A program made the translations under genes and the position numbers. Shown piece after piece: positions 8,611-48,716 of a stretch of DNA of 57,281 nucleotides. Source of the DNA: Candidatus Rokuibacteriota bacterium (lineage in GTDB: Bacteria; Methylomirabilota; Methylomirabilia; Rokubacteriales; CSP1-6); the NCBI GenBank assembly GCA_003220315.1, contig QHSA01000149.1, positions 1 through 57,281 of the forward strand. The letters run 5' to 3'. Position 1 is the first letter of the stretch, and every line of letters starts with the position of its first letter. The notes below the pieces were generated by a model, which worked only from the letters and a program-made list of their open reading frames with translations, did not search any database and was not told where the DNA came from.

Positions 8611-9432
8611 TCACCAGGGTCCGACCGCGAGCCCGTGGAGGACCATGCGGATCCCGACCAGGGCCAACGCGACGGCGAGCATGCGCCGGATCGTGACGGG
8701 GCGCGTCCGGACCGACACCCGGGCGCCGAGCTGGGCGCCGGCGAGGATGCCAGCGCCCATCAGGGCGGTTGTCGTGAGGTCCACGTGCCCGAGGGCGAAG
8801 AACGTGCCGGCGCCGACGAGCGTGGAGATCGAGAGGACGAAGTGCGAGGTCGCCGTGGCGACGTGCACCGGCAAGCTCAGCACGACGATGAGAAACGGCA
8901 CGTGGATGATCCCGCCGCCGATCCCGAAGACGCTCGAGAGGATCCCGACGAGAAGGCTGACGACCACACCCTTCCAGGCGTCCACGTGGTAGACGTGAGC
9001 CGCGCCGCTCGTGTCCACGATCCGCCGGGCGCCGGCCCGCGCCGAGGGCGCCGCGGTGATCCCCGAGAAGAGGAGCACCGCGATCAGAACGAGGAGGACG
9101 CCGAACGCAAGGCTGAACTCGTTCGAAGACATCGCGCGCGTGAGGTACGCGCCGCCGATGGCGCCGGGAATGGTGGCGGCCGCGAACTTCCAGCCGAGCT
9201 GGAGATCCACCCGGCGCTGGCGCAGGTAGGCGAAGCTACCGGAGGCGGCGTTGAGGAACACCAGCGAGAGCGAGGTGCCGACGGCGTCCGCGGGCGGGAA
9301 GTGGTACCCGATGAGCAGCAGCGGGACCAGGAGGAAGCCACCCCCCGCGCCGATCAGCGTCCCGAACGCACCGACAACGAACCCCAGGAAAACGAGCGCG
9401 GCGCCGAGGAGGATCGTGACCTCCGGAGGCAT
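8611..9432 (-). CDS. TauE/SafE-family membrane anion exporter
   Basis: 273 residues with about eight hydrophobic helices. The two-fold repeat typical of TauE/SafE (DUF81) is visible: GTLIGAGGGFLLVPLL near residue 27 and SSVFGIGGGIIHVPFL near 170. The family exports sulfite, sulfoacetate or related organosulfur anions. The start is MPPEVTILLG; the longer frame upstream has no coding character and would cross the divergent gene's promoter. The gene is divergent from the YeeE/YedE pair 25 bp away, placing two sulfur-type transporters back to back. The substrate is inferred from family and context. Confidence 0.88.
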   Translation of the reverse strand: MPPEVTILLGAALVFLGFVVGAFGTLIGAGGGFLLVPLLLIGYHFPPADAVGTSLSLVFLNAASGSFAYLRQRRVDLQLGWKFAAATIPGAIGGAYLTRAMSSNEFSLAFGVLLVLIAVLLFSGITAAPSARAGARRIVDTSGAAHVYHVDAWKGVVVSLLVGILSSVFGIGGGIIHVPFLIVVLSLPVHVATATSHFVLSISTLVGAGTFFALGHVDLTTTALMGAGILAGAQLGARVSVRTRPVTIRRMLAVALALVGIRMVLHGLAVGPW

Positions 9433-9456: not shown

Positions 9457-9987
9457 ATGACTGGTCGTGAGAATATGTCGCCGATGCGTCCCTACTGGTC
9501 GCCGTACCTCGCGGGCGTCGCGCTCGGGTTGACCCTGCTCGCCACCTATCTCCTGATGGGCTTCGGCCTCGGTGCGTCGGGCGCCTTCGCCCAGGTCGCC
9601 GCGCGTCTCGAGGGGGCCGTCGCGCCTGGGCGAGCCCACGCGAACCCGTACCTCGTGGGCTACCTGGACGCAGGCCGCCTGTGGGCCCAGTGGATCGTGG
9701 TCGAGATGGTCGGCGTGATCGTCGGCGCCGTCCTGGGCGCCTGGACAGCGGGCCGCTTCGCCTGGCGGCTCGAGAAGGGGCCGCGCATCGGCGCGGGCCG
9801 CCGGCTTCTCTTCGCCTTCATCGGCGGAGCGACAGTGGGGTTCGCGAGCCGGGTCGCTCAGGGGTGCACGAGCGGCGTCGCGCTCTCCGGCGGCGCCGTG
9901 CTGGCGCCGGGCGCCTGGGCGTTCCTCGCGACGTTCATGGCCGGCGGGTTCGTCACCGCGTGGATCGTGCGGAGGGCGTGGCGATGA
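9457..9987 (+). CDS. YeeE/YedE-family inner membrane protein (first half-type subunit)
   Basis: 176 residues, about four to five helices. It contains the family signature SRVAQGCTSGVALSGG near residue 130, with the Cys used in the thiosulfate/sulfur-compound permease family. Length matches the half-size YeeE/YedE proteins that work as adjacent pairs, rather than the fused about 350-residue TsuA type. A GAGG motif precedes the ATG at 9457; a second ATG at 9475 is possible. The stop overlaps the next gene's ATG (GCGATGAG), so it is co-translated with the second subunit. Probable role: uptake of a reduced sulfur or selenium species. Confidence 0.85.
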   Translation: MTGRENMSPMRPYWSPYLAGVALGLTLLATYLLMGFGLGASGAFAQVAARLEGAVAPGRAHANPYLVGYLDAGRLWAQWIVVEMVGVIVGAVLGAWTAGRFAWRLEKGPRIGAGRRLLFAFIGGATVGFASRVAQGCTSGVALSGGAVLAPGAWAFLATFMAGGFVTAWIVRRAWR

Positions 9988-10556
9988 GCTGGCCGCTCGA
10001 TCTCGAGGGCGCGGGCGGGCTCGCGATCGGGCTCCTCGCGGGTGTGGCCTTCGGCTTCATCCTCGAGCGCGGCGGTCTGGGTGATCCGAAGAAGCTCACG
10101 GGCCTCTTCTATCTCGAAGACTTCACGATGCTCAAGGTCATGTTCGCCGCGATCGCCGTGGCTGCCGCGGGCATCGGCGCGCTTTCGCTGCTCGGCGTGC
10201 TGGACCTCTCGCGAATCGCCGTCCAGCCGACCTATCTCTGGCCGCAGGCCGTGGGCGGCTTGATCCTCGGCGTCGGGTTCGCGCTCGGCGGCTACTGACC
10301 CGGCTCCTCGGCCGTGGGTGCGGCCTCGGGTCGGCTGGACGCGCTCTTCTTCATGCTGGGTCTGATCGCGGGCGTCATCGTCTTCGCCGAGATCTATACG
10401 GCGATCGCGGCGTTCGTCTGGAGCGGCTCCCTCGAGAGCGCGACCCTCGCCGAGCTGCTCGGGCTTCCGTTCTGGCTGCTGGCCGCGCTGGTGGTGGTGA
10501 TGGCCCTCGGGACCTTCTGGCTCGTCAGGCGGCTCGAGCTCAAGGCGGGGCGGTAG
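9984..10556 (+). CDS. YeeE/YedE-family membrane protein, candidate selenoprotein (in-frame TGA at 10296-10298)
   Basis: Reading through one in-frame TGA gives a 190-residue membrane protein beginning MSWPLDLEGAGG. The TGA falls exactly in the family motif, normally GGYCPGTS: the sequence reads GFALGGY-TGA-PGSSAVGAASGRLD, so selenocysteine would replace the conserved Cys. The frame stays open to 10556 with three or so further helices (LDALFFMLGLIAG, FWLLAALVVVMAL), which also belong to this family. A hairpin fitting the bacterial SECIS consensus starts 12 nt after the TGA. The alternative is a nonsense mutation with re-initiation at GTG 10314, but a random stop precisely at the redox-active Cys codon is unlikely. 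The partner gene upstream keeps its own Cys. Selenocysteine machinery is not in this window. Confidence 0.75.
10296..10325 (+). promoter_or_regulatory. candidate bacterial SECIS element
   Basis: After the TGA at 10296-10298, GGCCG (10310-10314) pairs with CGGCC (10321-10325), closing a 6-nt loop TGGGTG that starts 17 nt from the TGA. A 2x2 internal loop and a short CC/GG lower stem extend it. Bacterial SECIS elements need a stem-loop with a G in the first two loop positions about 16-37 nt after UGA; this satisfies that. Folding was done by eye. Confidence 0.6.
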
Positions 10557-10570
10557 GCCGGGGAGGCGCC

Positions 10571-11266
10571 ATGCCGCTGACACCGCACGTCGAGCACCAC
10601 TTCACCGCGAGCGCGATCGTCAGGGACATTGTCATCGGCATGTCCGACGGTCTCACAGTGCCGTTCGCGCTGGCGGCGGGAGTCTCGGGCGCCGTGGATT
10701 CGACGGCGCTCGTCGTCACCGCCGGCGTCGCCGAGATTGCCGCCGGCGCCATCGCCATGGGCCTGGGGGGCTACCTGGCCGGCAAGAGTGACCTCGAGCA
10801 CTACATCAGGGAGCGCGCGCGGGAGGAGATCGAGATCGCGGAGAAGCCCGAGGTCGAGGCCGAGGAGGTCAGGGAGCTGCTCCAATCGCACGGTCTCACC
10901 GCCGAGGAGAGCGCGCCCGTCGTCGAGGCCCTCCGCAGGCGCCCGGAGGCGTGGCGCGACTTCATGATGCGCTTCGAGCTCGGGCTCGAGAAACCCGACC
11001 CCGCCCGCGCGCGGACGAGCGCCGTCGTCATCGGCGGGGCATACGTCGCGGGCGGGTTGATCCCGCTCACCCCCTACATGCTCGCGGCGAGCGCGCGAAG
11101 CGCCCTGCCGTGGTCGGTCCTCGTGACGCTGACGGCGCTGGCCGTCTTCGGCTGGGGCAAGGGCAACTTCGCGGGCACGACGCCGCTCAGGAGCGCGCTC
11201 CAGACCGTGCTCATCGGCGGCCTCGCGGCCGGTGCCGCCTTCCTCATCGCGCGCCTCATCGCCTAG
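10571..11266 (+). CDS. VIT1/CCC1-family (DUF125) iron/manganese transporter
   Basis: 231 residues. The N-terminal helix carries RDIVIGMSDGLTVPFALAAG, the family hallmark, with VVTAGVAEIAAGAIAMGLGGYLAGKSD next. A cytosolic helical insertion rich in Glu (REEIEIAEKPEVEAEEVREL, about 85-130) matches the metal-binding segment of vacuolar iron transporter homologues. Three C-terminal helices follow. A GGGGAGG ribosome site precedes the ATG. It is co-oriented 14 bp after the YeeE/YedE gene, so likely in the same operon. The predicted role is Fe2+/Mn2+ export or membrane storage transport. The end overlaps the convergent GNAT gene by 4 bp. Confidence 0.9.
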   Translation: MPLTPHVEHHFTASAIVRDIVIGMSDGLTVPFALAAGVSGAVDSTALVVTAGVAEIAAGAIAMGLGGYLAGKSDLEHYIRERAREEIEIAEKPEVEAEEVRELLQSHGLTAEESAPVVEALRRRPEAWRDFMMRFELGLEKPDPARARTSAVVIGGAYVAGGLIPLTPYMLAASARSALPWSVLVTLTALAVFGWGKGNFAGTTPLRSALQTVLIGGLAAGAAFLIARLIA

Positions 11267-38361: not shown

Positions 38362-38391
38362 ATTATTCTTGTTGCTGCGACACCCTGTCAA
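38362..38391 (-). promoter_or_regulatory. candidate sigma70 promoter of the c-di-GMP genes
   Basis: On the minus strand TTGACA (38386-38391) and AATAAT (38362-38367) are 18 bp apart; the ATG at 38353 is 8 bp beyond the -10, implying a leaderless or very short-leader transcript. The plus-strand TusA gene diverges from the same 63-bp region. Confidence 0.5.
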
Positions 38392-38416
38392 TGTCAGAAT
38401 TTCAAGGGGTTTCGCG

Positions 38417-38653
38417 ATGCCCCGGGGGGCGGACAAGAAGCTCGACTGCGTGGGGCTGTTCTGTCCCATGCCGATCCTCAAGACGCGCGAGGCCATGAAG
38501 CACTTGACTCTCGGTCAGGTCCTCGAGATGACGTCCGACGACCCGGCCTCCGAGGCAGACATGAGGAGCTGGGCGGCCCGCACGGGCCACGAACTCCTGG
38601 AGATCGAGAAGAATGGCACGGTCTTTCGCTTCTTCGTCCGCAAGACCCGGTAG
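38417..38653 (+). CDS. TusA/SirA-family sulfur carrier
   Basis: 78 residues. The persulfide-carrying Cys lies in GLFCPMPILKTREAMK (CPxP motif), with the standard beta-alpha-beta-alpha-beta pattern (VLEMTSDDPASEADMRSWAARTGHELLEI). AAGGGG about 8 nt upstream supports the start at MPRGADKK. TusA-like proteins accept sulfur from a cysteine desulfurase and hand it to tRNA modification, molybdenum-cofactor or sulfur-oxidation enzymes. It overlaps the desulfurase gene by 41 bp. Confidence 0.93.
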   Translation: MPRGADKKLDCVGLFCPMPILKTREAMKHLTLGQVLEMTSDDPASEADMRSWAARTGHELLEIEKNGTVFRFFVRKTR

Positions 38654-39818
38654 CGGCCCCGCCGCGGCGGTTCCGCGCGTCTACCTGGACTACGCCGGCT
38701 TCTCCCCCGTGGACCCTCGTGTCGTCGCGGTCATGCGACCGTTCCTCGAGGGCGGCGTCGGCAACCCCGGGGCGCCCCATTCCCTGGGGCTCGAGGCGCG
38801 CGCGTCGCTCGACGGCGCGCGCGCGAAGGTGGCGCGTCTCATCGGTGGCACGCCGTCGGGAGTGATCTTCACCGCGAGCGCCACCGAGGCGAACAACCTC
38901 GCGATCAAAGGCGTCGCGGCGCGGGCCCCCGGCCGCCACATCGTGACCTCGGCGATCGAGCACGTCTCGGTGATCAACGCGTGCCGCGATCTCGAGAAGC
39001 AGGGGTTCACGGTGACCTACGTCCCGGTGGACGCCGAGGGGCGTGCGGATCCCGACGCTGTGGCGCGGTGGATCCGCGATGACACGGCGGTGGTCTCACT
39101 CATGGCGTCGAACGGCGAGATCGGCACCCTCGAACCGATCTCCGCGATCGGAAGACTCACGCGCGAGCGGGGCGTCGCCTTCCACGTCGACGCGGTCGGT
39201 GCGGCGGGGCGCGTGCCGCTCGCGGTGGACGAGGCGCACGTCGACCTGCTCACCCTCTCCTCGAACGATCTCTACGGGCCGCCGGGCGCCGGCGCCCTGT
39301 GGACGCGGGCGGGGGTCAAGCTCGCGCCCCAGATCCTCGGCGGCGGGCAGGAAGGCGGGTACCGCGCGGGGACCGAGAACCTGCCGGCGATCGTGGGGAT
39401 GGGCGTCGCCGCGGATCTCGCCCGGCTCGAGGGCCCGGCGGAGGTCGTCCGGCTCCGCGAGCTGCGCGACCGGCTGATCGCCCGGGTGCTCGAGCGGCTC
39501 CCGGAGGCGCGCCTCACTGGCGCGCGCGGGGGTGGCCGACTGCCGCACCACGCGTCCTTCGTGGTGCCCGGCGTGAAGGCGGACGGCGTCCTGCTCGAGC
39601 TGGATCTCAGAGGCATCGCCGCCTCGTCCGGCTCGGCGTGCAACGCGCTCACGGGCGAGCCCTCGCACGTGCTCCGCGCGATCGGCTGCGACCGCGAGGC
39701 GCTCGAGGGCTCCCTCTGCTTCACGCTCGGACGCTGGACCACTGCGAGCGAGATCGACGTCGCCGTCGAGACGCTGCCTGCCGTGGTCGCGCGCCTGCGC
39801 CGCCTCGCGCCGCGCTGA
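38613..39818 (+). CDS. cysteine desulfurase-family protein lacking the PLP lysine
   Basis: 401 residues with the class V aminotransferase fold: VYLDYAGFSPVDP, FTASATEANNLAIKG, SAIEHVSV (His117, stacks on PLP), MASNGEIGTLEPI, HVDAVGAAG and the persulfide Cys343 in SSGSACNAL. The Schiff-base segment, normally SxHKxxGPxG, reads SSNDLYGPPG: Asn218-Asp219 replace His-Lys, so PLP cannot be bound covalently in the usual way. The nearby Gln (DAVQAAG) is also Gly. I recall that the Archaeoglobus fulgidus IscS also has Asp at the lysine position, so the variant has precedent. It is coupled to TusA by overlap. It may work with an added partner, act as a scaffold, or use a different mechanism. The start is the only available ATG. 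Confidence 0.8.
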   Translation: MARSFASSSARPGSGPAAAVPRVYLDYAGFSPVDPRVVAVMRPFLEGGVGNPGAPHSLGLEARASLDGARAKVARLIGGTPSGVIFTASATEANNLAIKGVAARAPGRHIVTSAIEHVSVINACRDLEKQGFTVTYVPVDAEGRADPDAVARWIRDDTAVVSLMASNGEIGTLEPISAIGRLTRERGVAFHVDAVGAAGRVPLAVDEAHVDLLTLSSNDLYGPPGAGALWTRAGVKLAPQILGGGQEGGYRAGTENLPAIVGMGVAADLARLEGPAEVVRLRELRDRLIARVLERLPEARLTGARGGGRLPHHASFVVPGVKADGVLLELDLRGIAASSGSACNALTGEPSHVLRAIGCDREALEGSLCFTLGRWTTASEIDVAVETLPAVVARLRRLAPR

Positions 39819-47596: not shown

Positions 47597-48716
47597 GGGA
47601 CTCCCTCACGAGGCCGTCGCCGTCGACGAGCGACGCGACGCGCGCGCGCACCGCCTCGTCCAGGAACTCCGCGCGCGTCGCGAACTCGGGATAGATCGCG
47701 AGGCGCTCGCGGAGGACGAAGCCCATGCCCTCGGTGGCGCGGCGCAGCTCTGTGATCAGCGGCCACGGCTTCTCGGGATTGATGTGGTCCGGGGTGAGCG
47801 GTGAGATGCCGCCCCAGTCGTTGAGCCCCGCAGCGAGGAGGCGCGGGTAGGCGCGCGGCGAGAGGTTCGGCGGCGCCTGGATGTTCACGTCGGGCCCGAG
47901 CAGGAGCCGCGCGACGGCGAGCGTGCGGAGCATGTCCGCGAGCGGCGGCTCGGGATGATCCCGCATCGGAATGCGCGGCTTCGCGCGGAAGTTCTGGATG
48001 ATGACCTCCTGAAGGTGACCGTACCGCTCGTGGAGGTCGCGGATCGCCGCGAGGGCGTCCACCCGCTCGCGCAGCGTCTCACCGATGCCGATGAGGATGC
48101 CCGTCGTGAACGGGATCGAGAGCTTGCCCGCGAGCGCGATCGTGCGGAGGCGCCGGGCCGGCGCCTTGTCGGGTGCCCGGTCGTGCGCCAGCCCGGGGCT
48201 GCCGAGCCGCTCCGCGACGGTCTCGAGCATGAGGCCCATGCTCACGCTCACCTCGCGGAGGGCGGCGAGGTCGCGCTCGACCATGAGCCCCGGGTTGACG
48301 TGGGGCAGGAGCGGTGACTCGCGCAGCGTGAGCTCGCAGACCGCGCGGAGGTAGCCGAGCGTGGTGCGGTGGCCGTGGCGGCGCAGGAACTCGCGGTGGA
48401 CGGGAAAGGCCGCCTCCGGCTTGTCACCGAGCGAGAAGAGCGCTTCCTTCGCGCCGAGCCGGGCGCCCGCCTGGGCGAGCGCCAGCACCTCCTCGGGCGT
48501 CATCGTGTGGGCGCCGGGCTCGCCGGGATCGCGCCGGAAGGTGCAATAGCCGCAGTAGTCGCGGCAGAGGGTCGTCAGCGGCACGAAGACCTTGGCCGAG
48601 AAGGTGACGACGCGTCCCCGGCCGCGGTCGCGCACCTCGCCCGCGCGCGCGAGGAGCTCGTCGAGCCCCGCGTCGGGGGTCTCGATCAGCGCGCACGCGG
48701 CGGCGTGGGAGATCAC
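47574..48716 (-). CDS. cofG: FO synthase subunit 1 (radical SAM)
   Basis: 380 residues from GTG. The radical SAM motif C51-x3-C55-x2-C58 is in TLCRDYCGYCTF. EALFSLGDKPE, LGYLRAVCELTLRESPLLPHVNPGLM, IIQNFRAKPRIPM and GLNDWGGISPLTPDHINPEKPWP are characteristic CofG blocks. It completes the deazaflavin ring of Fo with CofH. Separate cofG and cofH genes, rather than the fused fbiC, occur here. The GTG directly follows a tandem repeat. Confidence 0.95.
   Translation of the reverse strand: MISHAAACALIETPDAGLDELLARAGEVRDRGRGRVVTFSAKVFVPLTTLCRDYCGYCTFRRDPGEPGAHTMTPEEVLALAQAGARLGAKEALFSLGDKPEAAFPVHREFLRRHGHRTTLGYLRAVCELTLRESPLLPHVNPGLMVERDLAALREVSVSMGLMLETVAERLGSPGLAHDRAPDKAPARRLRTIALAGKLSIPFTTGILIGIGETLRERVDALAAIRDLHERYGHLQEVIIQNFRAKPRIPMRDHPEPPLADMLRTLAVARLLLGPDVNIQAPPNLSPRAYPRLLAAGLNDWGGISPLTPDHINPEKPWPLITELRRATEGMGFVLRERLAIYPEFATRAEFLDEAVRARVASLVDGDGLVRESHEHWRRW

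Follow-up and report, generated by a model that had tools for sequence, protein, structure and literature searches.

The closest described relatives of the locus presented here are transporters of the YeeE/YedE superfamily (PF04143) that occur as one chain or as two half-size proteins. PmpB aligns with the N-terminal half of YeeE and PmpA with its C-terminal half, and the two have been proposed to form a heterodimer; their single cysteines correspond to Cys91 and Cys293 of TsuA, both of which are indispensable in that protein (PMC11582611). In Cupriavidus, YedE1E2 imports zero-valent sulfur and requires both halves, and serine at either of the conserved cysteines abolishes the uptake (PMC10812762). 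Selenocysteine (Sec) has been noticed in the superfamily as well. YeeE/YedE is listed as a selenoprotein family in two reviews (PMC9312934, PMC13188914), the listed selenoprotein being defined by the motif GUxSG with one example, WP_012471001.1 (PMC13188914), and 63 selenoprotein genes have been predicted in one genome of Methylomirabilota (PMC13188914). Sec in the superfamily and selenoprotein-rich genomes in the phylum are therefore already known.

The locus analysed here lies in a stretch of 57,281 nucleotides (the window), which is contig C256 of a Candidatus Rokuibacteriota genome that is 98% complete and 4.26 Mb in size. It comprises two overlapping half-size genes, the second of which would encode a selenoprotein, and a divergent neighbour:

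8611..9432, minus strand: TauE/SafE-family (sulfite exporter) gene, divergent (PF01925, 176.9 bits)
9457..9987, plus strand: PmpA/YedE1-type partner half, 176 aa, with Cys137 (codon 9865-9867) in QGCTSG (C-terminal half of PF04143)
9984..10556, plus strand: PmpB/YedE2-type half of a YeeE/YedE (Sulf_transp) transporter, 190 aa, with predicted selenocysteine at residue 105 (Pfam, TGA-bearing orthologs)
10296..10298, plus strand: predicted selenocysteine codon UGA (U105), where GGYCPG(T/S) has its invariant Cys (frame, alignments)
10310..10325, plus strand: SECIS-like hairpin GGCCGU-GGGU-GCGGCC, kept at identical spacing in 9/9 TGA orthologs

The frame 9984-10556 begins with ATG, ends with TAG and is interrupted by a single TGA, with ALGGYUPGSSAVG around residue 105 of 190. 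An earlier inspection of the letters without database searches (the sequence-only reading) had placed this TGA inside a frame that runs on to 10556, and its coordinates proved exact. It had also anticipated that automated annotation would split the gene, and translation table 11 does yield two ORFs, one ending at 10298 and the other covering 10314-10556. Both before and after the TGA, the codon positions have a coding-like base composition, and in a scan of the whole window no other TGA displayed a normal two-sided coding pattern. The other two-sided match of that scan, a TGA at 48315 (+), was rejected, its mirror base pattern being that of an antisense frame.

Both genes exceed the Pfam gathering cut-off of the superfamily. 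The product of 9984-10556 matches the N-terminal half of PF04143 (63.3 bits, cut-off 27; profile positions 10-149 of 310) and also DUF6691 (30.5 bits, cut-off 27), while the partner covers profile positions 174-310 of 310 (72.7 bits, cut-off 27). The stop codon of the partner overlaps the start of the second gene in the tetranucleotide ATGA, and the overlapping pair is preserved in six relatives (L060-L065). Two adjacent genes, one matching the N-terminal and the other the C-terminal half of YeeE, with one conserved Cys position in each, represent the arrangement of PmpA/PmpB (YedE1E2), with the difference that the residue in the PmpB half is predicted from its UGA to be Sec. The counterpart of U105 in Spirochaeta thermophila TsuA/YeeE is Cys91 (by the family profile, counted along the 6LEO alignment), and that of the partner's Cys137 is the GCNIG cysteine, Cys293; the U105 half contains no further cysteines. 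An AlphaFold2 model of the protein, built from 11 rows, reached a mean pLDDT of 57 and was set aside. The description of the gene as a sulfur/selenium permease stands as far as a YeeE/YedE selenoprotein is concerned, but the product is half of a two-gene transporter rather than a complete permease. Likewise, the notion of an unusual transport selenoprotein has to be narrowed, as the family already appears in published selenoprotein lists; the motif given there is GUxSG, whereas this protein has YUPG.

Relatives were searched for in 95 genomes of the same phylum. Eight Methylomirabilota orthologs, 88 to 56% identical, were found, and 8/8 carry TGA at codon 105 with the frame open behind it. Codon 105 is accordingly TGA in nine assemblies and TAA or TAG in none. 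A read error, i.e. TGC misread as TGA, had been named as something that would overturn the proposal; since the TGA is kept in eight other assemblies, such an error is excluded. The nine TGA sequences share 74% protein identity before the TGA and 69% after it, and third codon positions differ most on either side. The near-equal identity together with the third-position differences shows that the protein beyond the TGA is under selection. The residues PGSSA, which follow the TGA and precede the next codon that could serve as a start, are conserved too.

Homologs without TGA have cysteine at the same place. One relative within the phylum (G028) has Cys at position 105, as do relatives from Thermoanaerobaculia, HR40 and Campylobacterota, and TGC or TGT was found in 30/30 checked loci assigned to Acidobacteriota, a label deduced from L066, which is a Thermoanaerobaculia genome. 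Across 17 aligned homologs C/U105, P106 and G107 are invariant, which bears out the original assignment of the TGA to the cysteine of the family motif GGYCPG(T/S). Thus the gene has an in-frame UGA that lies opposite the Cys of homologs and is kept in orthologs, as is required of a bacterial selenoprotein. Among homolog matches in two other phyla (57/396 and 13/398 homolog-bearing genomes) TGA was not seen at all; one of these matches carries a TAA, yet has TGC at the site. The search of the phylum genomes did not recover the gene from several relatives of the same genus, and a TGA in L049 was discarded as preceding the protein start. Viral contigs searched contained no relative of the gene and the plasmids searched contained three, all of them distant.

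A stem-loop at the right distance and with a loop G had been postulated downstream of the TGA, and it is present. Its arms, 10310-10315 and 10320-10325, form 6 bp around the loop GGGU (10316-10319), which in every one of the nine TGA sequences begins 17 nt past the UGA. The last pair is U-G, C-G or U-A and the loop GGGU, GGGC or AGGU, so in 9/9 orthologs a hairpin just 3' of the UGA has G within the first two loop positions, as bacterial SECIS elements do. In the Cys homolog G028 (L039) the hairpin is lost and the third positions there are changed. Codons +4 to +10 form the peak of synonymous constraint in the gene (same-codon fraction 0.94 vs 0.65 gene-wide), with a permutation p of 0.00015 at the hairpin, corrected for amino acids, and of 0.008 for any place. 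In a comparable scan, 6 bp arose by chance in 5/30 Cys homologs. The folding energy of the region is no better than that of shuffled sequence (z 0.42), and stability is therefore not evidence for a SECIS; it is conservation that supports the element. Covariation on both sides of the stem was absent, with a single varying pair whose count did not exceed that of shuffles, as one would anticipate for a small set of sequences with GC-rich codons. An Rfam search of the region returned nothing above chance. From its position, loop and conservation we predict that the hairpin 10310-10325 is a bacterial SECIS.

The genome also harbors the complete machinery whose presence had been set as a check, namely selA, selB, selC and selD. 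The genes selA and selB are adjacent and share contig C281 with tRNA-Sec (anticodon TCA), and selD, itself with an in-frame UGA (YAACAGUASK), is located on contig C231. This selD (L026, G000:C231:16606-17541) is a selenoprotein gene in its own right, its UGA being followed by a hairpin of 8 bp. Within the phylum, selA was found in 19/20 tested genomes; it was not found in the TGA-bearing genome G076, the assembly of which is 77% complete.

By the standards of sequence analysis, it is close to certain that 9984-10556 is a real selenoprotein gene, and we infer insertion of Sec in vivo. We propose that SelB and tRNA-Sec would decode UGA 105 with the aid of the hairpin directly 3' of it. Sec would take the place of the relay cysteine within the membrane, the counterpart of TsuA Cys91, in a PmpB/YedE2-type half, which would pair with the upstream Cys-bearing half. 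The two halves likely form one channel and import reduced sulfur (zero-valent or sulfane sulfur, or thiosulfate), which would be passed along Sec and Cys. As a hypothesis, the relay would be covalent and involve Sec, whose selenol would accelerate sulfur exchange. This account as a whole, from the selenoprotein PmpB half and its hairpin-aided decoding by SelB to the Sec/Cys relay and the import of reduced sulfur together with the partner, appears to us highly probable.

The divergent TauE/SafE gene (8611-9432) adjoins the pair in L060 and L061 and was not seen next to it in other relatives; it is likely a functional neighbour. The TauE/SafE family is also among the genes near yedE1E2 (PMC10812762). 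Directly behind the pair lies a VIT1-family (iron/manganese) transporter gene, 10571-11263 (+), a position kept in the nearest relative, L060, and not seen in the others. At 38369-39815 (+), 28 kb from the pair, a TusA gene overlaps a gene for a class V aminotransferase (cysteine desulfurase-like). Elsewhere, the TusA-family protein YeeD takes thiosulfate from YeeE.

Several other explanations deserve to be weighed against this one. The TGA might be a true stop, in which case the locus would be a pseudogene, the product of a sequencing error or two separately translated short ORFs. The two ORFs of table 11, into which automatic annotation would divide the gene, are what such an explanation would predict; against it speak the recurrence of TGA, never TAA or TAG, at the same codon of nine assemblies and the conservation of the frame and of PGSSA, and we regard it as very improbable. 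The open frame alone would allow the UGA to be read as another amino acid, through a changed code or non-specific read-through. This is hardly credible, given that the partner gene itself terminates with TGA here, that the genome has SelA, SelB and a tRNA-Sec whose anticodon is TCA, that the non-TGA homologs checked all have Cys and not Trp or Gly at the position, and that the downstream hairpin is specifically conserved.

A different kind of objection accepts the selenoprotein and concerns its cargo: the pair might move selenium, or export excess selenium or sulfur, instead of importing reduced sulfur. Links of the superfamily to selenium handling exist in YedE of the model TIGR04112 (PMC5322559) and in a YedE-like protein of Methanococcus (PMC11582611), and the TusA and class V aminotransferase genes on the same contig would suit such a role. 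The window protein, however, scores 28.5 bits against TIGR04112, a putative selenium transporter model with a cut-off of 200; import of zero-valent sulfur has been demonstrated for pairs of PmpA/PmpB architecture; the genes selA, selB and selD are on other contigs; and the near neighbour is a gene of TauE/SafE type. We therefore consider this alternative unlikely, and prefer the import of reduced sulfur by a Sec/Cys pair.

Further UGA-bearing members of the superfamily occur in the phylum. A second clade of PmpB halves with UGA has the motif GFUPGT (G058, G007, G018), and in G007 and G018 the PmpA half has a UGA too (ADGUTSGH). These PmpA-type halves, L116:437-955 (+) and L115:7055-7588 (-), were observed directly before the GFUPGT PmpB halves of the two genomes. 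UGA in both halves was also found in G093 (L114), with GGUTSGH and GTUPGT. As judged from these reading frames, both subunits of one transporter are predicted to be selenoproteins in G007, G018 and G093. In G020 the UGA is in PmpA and the contig ends before the PmpB site. The pairs with both motifs readable amount to 10 Cys/Sec, 3 Sec/Sec and 4 Cys/Cys, and in each UGA pair clade the UGA is followed by a separate hairpin carrying a loop G. In the same phylum, full-length YeeE/TsuA-like proteins (L100-L109, L111-L113) have UGA at the Cys91 position, in GGU(A/G)SG or GGUTTG; most of them, but not every one, come with a suitable hairpin. The GGU(A/G)SG forms are about 27-32% identical to the window protein, with UGA at the same aligned position. 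One full-length paralog, L110 (+), with UGA at a Cys22-type motif (RGRFUM), was rejected: it is without a suitable hairpin, has lost Cys293 and could be decaying.

On a tree of 54 PmpB-type sequences, four switches between Cys and Sec have to be assumed, of which at least three are forced by well supported branches. It is conceivable, with about an even chance in our judgement, that the phylum has repeatedly swapped the YeeE/YedE relay cysteine for Sec, at the Cys91 position in several PmpB lineages and in full-length proteins and at the partner Cys293 in some genomes, so that some pairs have selenols in both halves and operate a selenium-based relay. If this is true, a channel with two selenols would move sulfane sulfur (or selenium) across the membrane.

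Selenoproteins are mostly soluble redox enzymes. When Sec occupies a position of a membrane sulfur channel at which relatives have an essential residue, this suggests that relay residues do chemistry, such as persulfide or selenylsulfide exchange, beyond lining a pore. The natural Cys/Cys, Cys/Sec and Sec/Sec pairs offer a ready series for testing covalent transport of the YeeE type, and the Sec half-transporter exemplifies a type of gene that automatic annotation splits in two. Neither the half-size YUPG PmpB nor the Sec/Sec pairs are in the published list, and no paper describing them was found in the literature searched; both may have been predicted already in papers or supplements beyond that search, among which is the groundwater survey with the 63 genes.

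Taken together, the comparison with known systems is as follows. The window protein shares with the listed Sec-YeeE/YedE the superfamily and the use of Sec for a conserved Cys, but it is half-size and of PmpB type, and its YUPGSS (in full GGYUPGSS) does not fit the motif GUxSG, which the full-length GGU(A/G)SG forms of the phylum do fit. YedE of TIGR04112 is a distant superfamily relative, described with Cys and not Sec (PMC5322559). In the thiosulfate transporter TsuA/YeeE (PDB 6LEO, 8J4C), Cys91 and Cys293 match U105 and the partner Cys137, but TsuA has its three relay cysteines on a single chain, while the U105 half is without an equivalent of Cys22; scores against the TsuA models remain far below their cut-offs (NF041049, 34.2 bits, cut-off 645; NF052577, 29.3 bits, cut-off 400). 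The two-gene zero-valent sulfur transporters, PmpA/PmpB in Serratia and YedE1E2 in Cupriavidus, likewise consist of two adjacent half genes with one essential chalcogen residue each. The halves in the window are longer (176 and 190 aa vs about 130), and where the published pairs have Cys in both halves, this pair is predicted to have Sec in its PmpB half.
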